From assembly GCF_009858175.1 (NCBI RefSeq), contig NZ_CP047393.1:1364001-1428000 (forward strand): 64,000 nt of DNA. Reading direction: 5' to 3'. The DNA is from Pontibacillus sp. HMF3514 (GTDB lineage Bacteria; Bacillota; Bacilli; Bacillales; BH030062). A model generated the notes under the pieces. The model was not told where the DNA came from and did no database searches. It saw nothing but the letters and a program-made list of their open reading frames with translations. Every line of letters starts with the position of its first letter. Within the stretch, counting starts at the first letter, position 1. This document shows positions 11,296 through 13,223 of the stretch, one piece after another. The translations under genes and the position numbers were made by a program.

Positions 11296-11315
11296 CTATA
11301 ATAGAGCATTAAAAA

Positions 11316-11344
11316 AAGGACTTCTCATAATGAGAAGTCCTTTA
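11316..11344. terminator. Bidirectional terminator
   Basis: An AAAGGACTTCTCA/TGAGAAGTCCTTT stem lies between the convergent deiminase-like and cold-shock genes. Confidence 0.85.
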
Positions 11345-11356
11345 TTGGTAGTAAGA

Positions 11357-11557
11357 CTACTGCTTAACTACGTTAGAAGCTTGTGGTCCACGGTTACCTT
11401 CTTCGATGTCGAATGTAACAGTTTGACCTTCTTCTAGTGATTTGAAACCTTCTTCTTGAATTGCAGAGAAGTGAACGAATACATCGTCTCCACCCTCAAC
11501 TTCGATGAAACCGAAGCCTTTTTCTGCGTTAAACCATTTTACTGTACCTTTGTTCAT
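11357..11557 (-). CDS. Cold-shock protein, CspA/CspB family
   Basis: 66 residues. Single-stranded nucleic acid-binding OB fold, an RNA chaperone. RNP1-type KGFGFIEV (13-20) and RNP2-type VFVHFS are intact, and length is typical. The start is ATG 11557, preceded by GGAGG 7 bases upstream; a longer in-frame extension has no ribosome site. A leader of 90 bases or more without another gene precedes it, as is common for cold-shock mRNAs. Confidence 0.95.
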
Positions 11558-11652
11558 TTCAATTCCTCCAGGTGCTATCTTAGCACGATATATTACTATT
11601 CTTGCTCTACACAATTATTCAAGATGACAATCACTACTGAATCATTTCTCTT

Positions 11653-11960: not shown

Positions 11961-12054
11961 ACAAGCTAATCAGTGATGTTACATAAATAAGGCTATGAAT
12001 TTGGTCTGAAGCCCTTATCCTCCTGAAGTATGAGGGAAGTTCGTGCTCGATACC

Positions 12055-12085
12055 GTTAAGAAGAAAAGCGATCACGGATATACTT
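12055..12085 (+). promoter_or_regulatory. Predicted promoter of cassette A
   Basis: TTAAGA, a 17-base spacer and TATACT. The same TTAAGA-N17-TATACT arrangement occurs in copy B, although the spacer sequences differ, which supports it as a functional promoter. Confidence 0.55.
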
Positions 12086-12116
12086 AAATTAACAAGAAAA
12101 CAAGGAGAGATAAAAA

Positions 12117-12170
12117 ATGTTTAACGAATTTGAACTGAGTCAGCAAATAGAAAACCGACGTCCAAGATAA
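12117..12170 (+). CDS. 17-residue peptide A1 ending in RRPR
   Basis: The peptide is MFNEFELSQQIENRRPR. AAGGAG lies 9 bases before the ATG. Its counterpart in copy B is MLNEFELGHQIEERRPK. Substitutions such as GAACTG/GAATTG, CGACGT/CGTCGC and CCA/CCG keep the amino acids, which supports translation. No family recognised. It could be a regulatory leader peptide, a signalling peptide or a RiPP-like precursor. Confidence 0.6.
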   Translation: MFNEFELSQQIENRRPR

Positions 12171-12202
12171 GTGTTTTGCAAATTATACAGGAGGTGAGTT
12201 TA

Positions 12203-12259
12203 ATGGTTGTAAATGAACATGAACTAGAATATTTAATAAGTGAGCGTCGTCCTCGATAG
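12203..12259 (+). CDS. 18-residue peptide A2 ending in SERRPR
   Basis: The peptide is MVVNEHELEYLISERRPR. A perfect AGGAGGTGA site (12189-12197) lies 5 bases before the ATG. Copy B encodes MNIHEIELEYLMSERRPR, with synonymous differences in the RRPR codons. It shares the E-L/I...ERRP ending with A1, so A1 and A2 look like diverged relatives. Function unknown. Confidence 0.6.
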   Translation: MVVNEHELEYLISERRPR

Positions 12260-12300
12260 AAAGAAATAGGATCCAATCCATTAATCGTAGGGGGTGCGTT

Positions 12301-12333
12301 ATGGAAGATACAAAAAAGAGAGAATATCATTAA
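12301..12333 (+). CDS. 10-residue peptide A3 ending in YH
   Basis: The peptide is MEDTKKREYH. AGGGGGTG lies just upstream, and the stop overlaps the base of the terminator stem. Copy B has an 8-residue peptide, MTNTELNH, in the same place. This is the weakest of the three ORFs. Confidence 0.35.
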   Translation: MEDTKKREYH

Positions 12334-12376
12334 CCTTTCTTCTTCTCAATCCATTGTGAAGAAGAAAGGTTTTTTG
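12332..12376 (+). terminator. Terminator of cassette A
   Basis: An AACCTTTCTTCTTC/GAAGAAGAAAGGTT stem with a following T run. Confidence 0.85.
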
Positions 12377-12504
12377 ATTGTTATTCTGTTGGTCTGAAAC
12401 CTTTATCATCCTGAAGTCTGAGAAAAGTTCGTGCTTGGTACCGTTAAGAAAAAATGCTCTCAGAGATATACTTAGATTAACAAGAAAACAAGGAGAGATG
12501 AGTA

Positions 12505-12558
12505 ATGTTAAACGAATTTGAATTGGGTCATCAAATAGAAGAACGTCGCCCGAAATAA
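12505..12558 (+). CDS. 17-residue peptide B1 ending in RRPK
   Basis: The peptide is MLNEFELGHQIEERRPK. AAGGAG lies upstream of the ATG, preceded by the same AACAAGAAAACAAGGAGAG leader as copy A. Paralogue of A1. Confidence 0.6.
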   Translation: MLNEFELGHQIEERRPK

Positions 12559-12589
12559 GTAGGAAACAATAACTAAGGAGGTGAGTGAA

Positions 12590-12646
12590 ATGAATATTCA
12601 TGAAATTGAATTGGAATATCTAATGAGTGAGCGCCGCCCTCGATAA
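12590..12646 (+). CDS. 18-residue peptide B2 ending in SERRPR
   Basis: The peptide is MNIHEIELEYLMSERRPR. AAGGAGGTGA lies 5 bases upstream of the ATG. Paralogue of A2. Confidence 0.6.
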   Translation: MNIHEIELEYLMSERRPR

Positions 12647-12693
12647 TAGTCAGAATGCAACATTATTAGAATAGGTAAGGGGTGCGCTAAGGA

Positions 12694-12720
12694 ATGACAA
12701 ATACAGAACTAAACCATTAA
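12694..12720 (+). CDS. 8-residue peptide B3 ending in NH
   Basis: The peptide is MTNTELNH. It occupies the position of A3 just before the terminator, with a GGGGTGCG stretch upstream in both copies. Very short, so low confidence. Confidence 0.25.
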   Translation: MTNTELNH

Positions 12721-12765
12721 CCTCTCTTCTTCATCCACATTTGCGATGAGGAGGAGAGGTTTTTA
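12719..12765 (+). terminator. Terminator of cassette B
   Basis: A CCTCTCTTCTTC/GAGGAGGAGAGG stem and T run. The arm sequence differs from copy A while the structure is kept. Confidence 0.85.
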
Positions 12766-12848
12766 TATGTATACTAAGTTTTTACGTCTATTTTACGGTA
12801 TTTTTGTATAGATATAGTAGGTTTAATTTCATTGAAAGGAGGAGTTTA

Positions 12849-13223
12849 ATGGGGATCCGTTTTATCGAATTAGCTTCGATATACTTTTTTATTGGGATTG
12901 GGTTAGGAATCTTTATGGAAATGGCTCATGACCATGCATCAATGGGCGTACATGCTCACATAAACCTCGTCGGCTGGGTTTCAATGGCACTTTTTGGACT
13001 TTAATATCATTTCTTCCCACAATTGGCGAATAACAAATTAGGTAAAACCCACTTTTGGCTCCATAACCTTTCGCTACCGTTATTTATGGTAGGACTTGGA
13101 TTCTTGATTTATGGGAATGAATCGTTGTTACTTCTTGTGATTGTGGGGAGTAACGTACTAGCAATTAGTGTGATTGTCTTTGTGGTGAATGTGTTTAAGA
13201 ACTTGAAAGTAGATGCTTCATAA
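12849..13223 (+). pseudogene. Cytochrome-c-oxidase-subunit-I-like small membrane protein, nonsense interrupted
   Basis: A frame of 124 sense codons is split by an in-frame TAA at 13002-13004. Before it, MGIRFIELASIYFFIGIGLG and VHAHINLVGWVSMALFGL; after it, YHFFPQLANNKLGKTHFWLHN and two further hydrophobic segments, ending NVFKNLKVDAS. The whole reads as one member of the small Bacillus membrane proteins annotated as cytochrome-c oxidase-like, with four helices and conserved His residues (HAH, YH, HFW). AAAGGAGG lies before the ATG. Either a recent pseudogene, a sequencing error or readthrough. Confidence 0.75.

Follow-up and report, generated by a model that had tools for sequence, protein, structure and literature searches.

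Tandem microprotein genes of Pontibacillus that are probably controlled by a LiaR-type envelope-stress regulator

What do units built around micro-ORFs encode, and what turns them on? The question arises from a 64,000-nucleotide stretch of the genome of Pontibacillus sp. HMF3514 (G000, 3.98 Mb), hereafter the window, in which two tandem units stand head to tail (12018-12377 and 12406-12767), each made up of two micro-ORFs preceded by strong ribosome sites, with a promoter in front and a terminator-like hairpin at the end (Table 1). A first-pass annotation of the DNA had described here a duplicated cassette of three tiny ORFs. The duplication is borne out, at approximately 12001-12376 and 12389-12765, the copies being 84% identical over the first 172 nt and 74% identical over 376 nt, and the same two units occur at the same place in Pontibacillus marinus (G002, same genus). 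ORF1 (17 codons) and ORF2 (18 codons) are found in both copies, each with the claimed ribosome site (5-6 bases of AGGAGG before the ATG). The third ORF of 8-10 codons is doubtful: in copy 1 its peptide is not kept (MEDTKKREYH in the window, MGNKKNKEHE in P. marinus), in copy 2 the peptides are one residue apart (MTNTELNH and MTNPELNH), and none of the four third ORFs in the window and P. marinus is preceded by at least 4 bases of AGGAGG.

The proposed promoter, TTAAGA-17-TATACT, is present in both copies, and its assignment rests on conservation, because the consensus scan that lists it finds no more such sites than occur in shuffled sequence (6 vs 6.2). Hairpins were likewise recovered where terminators had been claimed, in both copies by a separate scan and by folding, and in copy 1 also as an inverted repeat; a consensus terminator scan of the window listed neither hairpin, and terminator-like sites were no commoner than in shuffles. 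Just downstream of the units (12849-13220, plus strand) lies a gene for a small membrane protein, broken in the window by one in-frame TAA near 13002 and open in P. marinus, neither half of which matches Pfam. Upstream (11312-11641, minus strand), a cspA cold-shock leader (Rfam RF01766) precedes a cold-shock-like protein gene.

Table 1. Positions of features in the two tandem units of the window and of a third unit elsewhere in the same genome.
Feature	Position	Strand	Sequence or remark
LiaR/CesR-type inverted repeat, copy 1	12018..12033	+	TCCTCCTGAAGTATGA; fits T(X)4C(X)4G(X)4A; 11/14 of CesR consensus; predicted site
Conserved element and promoter, copy 1	12034..12084	+	-35 TTAAGA 12056-12061, 17 bp, -10 TATACT 12079-12084
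Micro-ORF 1, copy 1	12117..12170	+	MFNEFELSQQIENRRPR
Micro-ORF 2, copy 1	12203..12259	+	MVVNEHELEYLISERRPR
Third tiny ORF, copy 1	12301..12333	+	MEDTKKREYH; doubtful, not conserved
Terminator-like hairpin with T run, copy 1	12334..12377	+	
LiaR/CesR-type inverted repeat, copy 2	12406..12421	+	TCATCCTGAAGTCTGA; 13/14 of CesR consensus; predicted site
Conserved element and promoter, copy 2	12422..12472	+	-35 TTAAGA 12444-12449, 17 bp, -10 TATACT 12467-12472
Micro-ORF 1, copy 2	12505..12558	+	MLNEFELGHQIEERRPK
Micro-ORF 2, copy 2	12590..12646	+	MNIHEIELEYLMSERRPR
Third tiny ORF, copy 2	12694..12720	+	MTNTELNH; doubtful
Terminator-like hairpin with T run, copy 2	12721..12767	+	
Third unit (outside the window)	G000:C1 ~1517033-1517300		Encodes MILTENEIRDLIDQRKPKK; terminator-like hairpin

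The first-pass annotation had made its case depend on conservation in relatives, and six-frame profile searches (A2 then A5; 199 genomes, then 397 genomes) show that the peptides are kept in other genera and families, often as pairs (examples are MNIYEMEKLVETRRV, MINIFEISIDIQERRPR, MTNIYEMELEIASRRTK, and MFNEYELSIQVSDRRTK). Relatives occur in 27 genomes of the order, our own included, two of which are borderline: G170, with the peptide MYNYYEIERIIIENVKKPNRK, and G124, whose promoter site scores 7/14. The 397-genome search matched 28 genomes at E<=0.05, of which 20 were counted and 8 dropped; the tally of 27 comprises these 20, G009 from the 199-genome search, and six found by promoter (G288, G040, G175, G124, G294, and G170). 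Among the dropped genomes, G100 and G270 share a peptide located in what we presume to be the veg region, the G010 match overlies another gene, and the matches in G142, G265, G360, G363, and G390, which fall within open frames of 162-499 codons, were set aside unread. In the alignments, one 20-residue peptide (G341) was trimmed to 17 in A7, and the G007 row of A5 is one letter off its true sequence.

Beyond the order, a class-wide peptide search of 398 genomes matched six, our own among them; G100 and G010 are again false and G647 looks like chance. G655 and G687, both outside the order, each encode a small protein whose sequence opens with M[IM]NHYE[LM]QQMMEAKRMEID; the promoter element is missing in both. 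A pattern search of named genomes returned 23 stretches, two of them in Bacillaceae (Pontibacillus marinus and Salinibacillus xinjiangensis) and the other 21 in unrelated groups, set aside by title; an exact match to one pattern was sought in viral contigs and none was found.

Across the 27 units, at least 4 bases of AGGAGG precede 43 of 52 ORFs, and a unit holds one to three ORFs, single-ORF units included. Tandem units are present in the window, G002, G001, G341, G267, G318, and G338, and the two units of G001 have identical 85-bp promoter elements. The units have been repeatedly duplicated in tandem, and gene dose seems to matter. Their neighbors vary among the loci read and include genes that we presume to be corA-like and msmX-like.

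The informative part of the locus, overlooked by the first-pass annotation, is the promoter element common to the units. When 25 distinct promoters are aligned on the -10 box, an 85-bp element aligns without gaps in 24 and with a 1-base gap in one, and the consensus reads TC.GTCT..AG.CTGA, then AAAGTTCATGCT.GCTGCCGTTA, then 17 bp to TATACT. The inverted repeat that opens this consensus stands at a fixed distance, 45 bp upstream of the -10 box. Its element columns T6, C11, and G16 are invariant and A21 is near-invariant; these letters make up the published LiaR motif T(X)4C(X)4G(X)4A (PMC7191749), and the repeat as a whole is the CesR palindrome of lactococci, TCAGHCTnnAGDCTGA, as quoted in a paper on Streptococcus mutans LiaR (PMC4447274). 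If transcription is assumed to start 7 nt after the -10 box, the center of the repeat falls near -65; the LiaR footprint on PliaI spans -76 to -52 (PMC7191749). Because the distance to the -10 box is fixed and upstream terminators run straight into the element at several loci, we rejected the possibility that the 85 bp belong to a transcribed RNA.

At least 11 of the 14 CesR letters are matched by 32 of 35 promoters and the four-letter rule T(X)4C(X)4G(X)4A by 31; three promoters score below 11 and four break the rule. The first 31 promoters contributed 30 and 28 of these, respectively, and the four added later score 10 (G042), 7 (G124), and 11 each (the third units of G000 and G002). Thirty promoters were scored at the fixed place from the -10 box and five at the best place within 20 positions. 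A random window position reaches 11/14 with a probability of 1.25e-4. Within the window alone, allowing at most two mismatches yields one site (copy 2) vs 1.33 in shuffles, no more than chance, and at most three mismatches yields 8 vs 15.8; the copy 1 repeat is poor (11/14). The evidence for a LiaR-type repeat is thus thin in the window alone; position and relatives carry the case, and they show these promoters to have the LiaR/CesR-type inverted repeat in a fixed place.

A promoter model (R1) trained only on cassette promoters and searched in 20 cassette-bearing genomes gave 10 non-cassette matches at E<=0.01. Four of these lie before liaF (G000, G002, G009, and G341), with LiaF above the NCBIfam cut-off in all four; two precede a DUF4097-like gene, one an MFS gene, and one an ABC gene (names by eye), and the remaining two (G000 and G002) precede a third micro-ORF unit encoding MILTENEIRDLIDQRKPKK with its own terminator-like hairpin. 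Six hits before DUF4097-like and MFS transporter-like genes, four of them with E >0.01, add candidate targets for a second LiaFSR system. In G000, this second operon starts with liaF and continues with genes for a HisKA_3 kinase and a regulator of the LuxR type; the solved structures most similar to that regulator are labeled VraR (5hev, E 6.9e-71), and we take 5hev to be enterococcal LiaR. LiaF is present in 30 of 30 genomes, and 23 have two above the cut-off. Of the seven single-LiaF genomes, four were read: G222, G042, and G040 are without LiaH, and G124 is with it.

The element might instead be the target of a different response regulator of the LuxR/NarL type, or of the LiaR of the LiaH-linked operon. 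Related regulators do have similar half-sites, and the solved VraR proteins are closer to the LiaH-linked regulator (E 1.7e-88) than to the regulator of the second operon (6.9e-71). We regard this alternative as rather unlikely. G000 has a liaI-liaH-liaF-S-R operon as well, and the site before its liaI, TACGCCTAGAGGCTTA, differs from the cassette sites and is closer than they are to the B. subtilis LiaR site ATAcGACtcccgGTCtTAT (PMC7191749). The half-sites of the cassettes match those before the liaF of the second operon (G000, G222, G042, and others), whereas the LiaH-linked liaI half-sites read TACGCCT..AGGCTTA in G000 and TACGCCT..AGACCTA in G124. Three genomes whose single LiaF has no LiaH linkage, G222, G042, and G040, also contain cassettes. 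PspA was matched in 28 of 30 genomes, and in this search it was not found in G222 and G042, yet both possess cassettes as well as LiaFSR; in these two genomes the peptides therefore cannot depend on LiaH. A LiaFSR operon with the same site accompanies the cassettes in G000, G222, and G042, and not in G124, where the only LiaF is of the LiaH-linked kind and the unit's promoter is without the site (7/14), a single case in the expected direction; the G124 unit is either not LiaR-controlled or no member of the family.

Whether the micro-ORFs matter as proteins is addressed by their substitutions. The first-pass annotation had regarded the differences between the copies as often silent; for the two window copies alone the changes at the three codon positions (9/3/11, P 0.077) are not significant, and the claim becomes strong once relatives are included. 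Over 16 ORF pairs, pN/pS is 0.18 (pN 0.081, pS 0.447), changes by codon position are 24/16/80 (third position 80 of 120), and P is 2e-4, the lowest value that 5000 shuffles allow; in frames +1 and +2, the same pairs give ratios of 1.19 and 2.02. These pairs are partly dependent (one G379 ORF is used twice), and 12 of the 16 were found via peptide similarity, which favors low pN. A DNA comparison, as opposed to a peptide search, supplied the four window-P. marinus pairs, which show 3/3/17. Five pairs of small proteins found by promoter (37-49 residues) are less prone to similarity bias, although their genomes were chosen where a counterpart was seen, and give pN/pS 0.23, 27/11/45, and P 2e-4. 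This pattern of changes indicates that the micro-ORFs are under protein-level selection and that the peptides are the products of real genes.

The same data bear on the possibility that the transcripts are LiaR-controlled small regulatory RNAs, in which the micro-ORFs are a by-product or serve only to hold ribosomes on the transcript. The units are indeed short, each has a promoter of its own, and a simple scan finds a terminator in 20 of the 27. The excess of third-position changes and its dependence on the reading frame argue against an RNA function, as do the three near-identical peptides encoded by three ORFs within one G379 unit, and an Rfam search of the window, the cassette, and eight relatives found nothing at gathering score except the nearby cspA leader, making this explanation improbable.

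The peptides themselves are charged. Over 49 of them the charge averages -1.7 for the N-terminal half and +1.6 for the C-terminal half, and 44 of the 49 have a helix cap (N/T/S/D-x-x-E) near the start, vs a shuffled mean of 6.5 and maximum of 15. This layout, acidic half then basic half, is what might be expected of a short stable helix. An AlphaFold2 model of a 49-residue relative, longer than the 15-20-residue peptides, places a helix at residues 5-14 (3 sequences, mean pLDDT 70, pTM 0.27). No hydrophobic membrane helix of the type I toxin kind was found when the peptides were read directly. The first-pass annotation had raised secreted or imported signals as a possible role, and short, conserved, repeated peptides would suit one; the charge layout, the fact that the 15-20-residue peptides read contain neither a signal sequence nor a hydrophobic stretch, and the observation that no recurrent receptor or exporter was noticed beside the loci read speak against it, and we consider such signals very improbable.

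Its other suggestion, leader peptides that stall at Arg-Pro-Arg-stop and control a downstream gene, draws on a basic C-terminus adjoining the stop, on a likeness to attenuation leaders in size, strong ribosome sites, and position before a terminator, and on a G040 micro-ORF whose end lies 18 nt upstream of the earliest possible start of a presumably aldolase-like gene, but did not hold up and can be given next to no weight, as a terminator follows 20 of 27 units (none was found in 7), single-ORF units occur, downstream genes vary among the loci read, sometimes on the opposite strand, with no regulated one recognised, and conservation lies well upstream of the stop, where C-termini vary (RRPR/RRTK/KRVK/RRL/RR) with no conserved arrest sequence.

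We therefore favor, with a probability of roughly 0.68, the reading that the units are LiaR-controlled envelope-stress microprotein genes, 15-20 residues long and tandem-duplicated. Each unit would stand alone as a gene that specifies between one and three microproteins of this size, turned on by a LiaR-type response regulator upon cell-envelope damage, and the regulator would probably be the LiaR encoded by the second LiaF-LiaS-LiaR operon, which does not include LiaH. The peptide may form a short capped helix in the cytoplasm, with an N/T-x-x-E cap, an acidic N half, and a basic C-terminus such as RRP[KR], and might act by binding, stoichiometrically, a partner that belongs to the envelope-stress machinery; a need for such amounts would account for both the repeated ORFs and the repeated tandem units. 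A cytoplasmic helical peptide binding a partner is the form of action that we tentatively favor; it might do so in feedback on LiaF2/LiaS2 or, just as likely, as an effector at the membrane.

Other small proteins stand behind the same element. A search of the order matched 68 of 299 genomes, and 58 further matches were read, 14 of the weakest (E 4.7e-4 to 1e-3) being left out. Proteins of the type MILTE.EIRDLID.RKPEK with a tail occur in G004, G005, and G006, and the 19-residue MILTE form is encoded by ORF3 in G001 and G007 and by the third unit of G000; it is convincing in 5 of 159 genomes, all of this genus, with three more weak. LiaI-/LiaF-like membrane proteins (named by eye) and basic proteins of 29-55 residues also follow the element. 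The Pfam/NCBIfam scan, which takes proteins of at least 20 residues, was applied to 10 longer small proteins, of which two match YrzI, one has a sub-threshold Pfam hit, and seven have none. The two YrzI-like proteins (49-51 residues, G078 and G137) are above the Pfam cut-off of PF09501 and under the NCBIfam one; they share the element with the micro-ORF peptides but differ from them in sequence, in being three times longer, and in their hydrophobic N-terminus. PF09501 is described as a probable sporulation family. It is possible, as a tentative extension, that LiaR-type envelope-stress systems of halophilic and related Bacillaceae largely act through a hidden layer of microproteins: 15-20-residue helical peptides, in some species fused to amphipathic tails, plus several unrelated 30-55-residue proteins with the same element.

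The units resemble the LiaR/CesR regulon in their inverted repeat, in its distance to the -10 box, and in that their genomes also have a liaF operon preceded by the same site. They differ from it in their products: in B. subtilis the known LiaR target promoter is that of liaIH (PMC3567932), whereas here the products are peptides of 15-20 residues. As the first-pass annotation had supposed, no described family was found for these peptides. Literature searches that paired LiaR with small peptides or ORFs, or microproteins with envelope stress or LiaFSR, turned up no such genes among the matches listed, subscription journals lying mostly outside their coverage. The LiaR regulon is known, as are stress microproteins; the peptide family and its link to LiaR appear to be new.

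LiaFSR systems respond to bacitracin, daptomycin, and similar drugs, and we know of no settled account of how they protect the membrane. Peptides this small fall under the length limits of gene finders, yet they lie behind LiaFSR's own kind of promoter, in several units per genome in some species, and an overlooked set of cell-wall-stress microproteins may exist. With a promoter model, such genes can be found by regulation instead of length, and the peptides are small enough for direct synthesis and testing. If a microprotein layer of this kind is real, it would constitute a new class of envelope-stress effector, present also where LiaH is missing.
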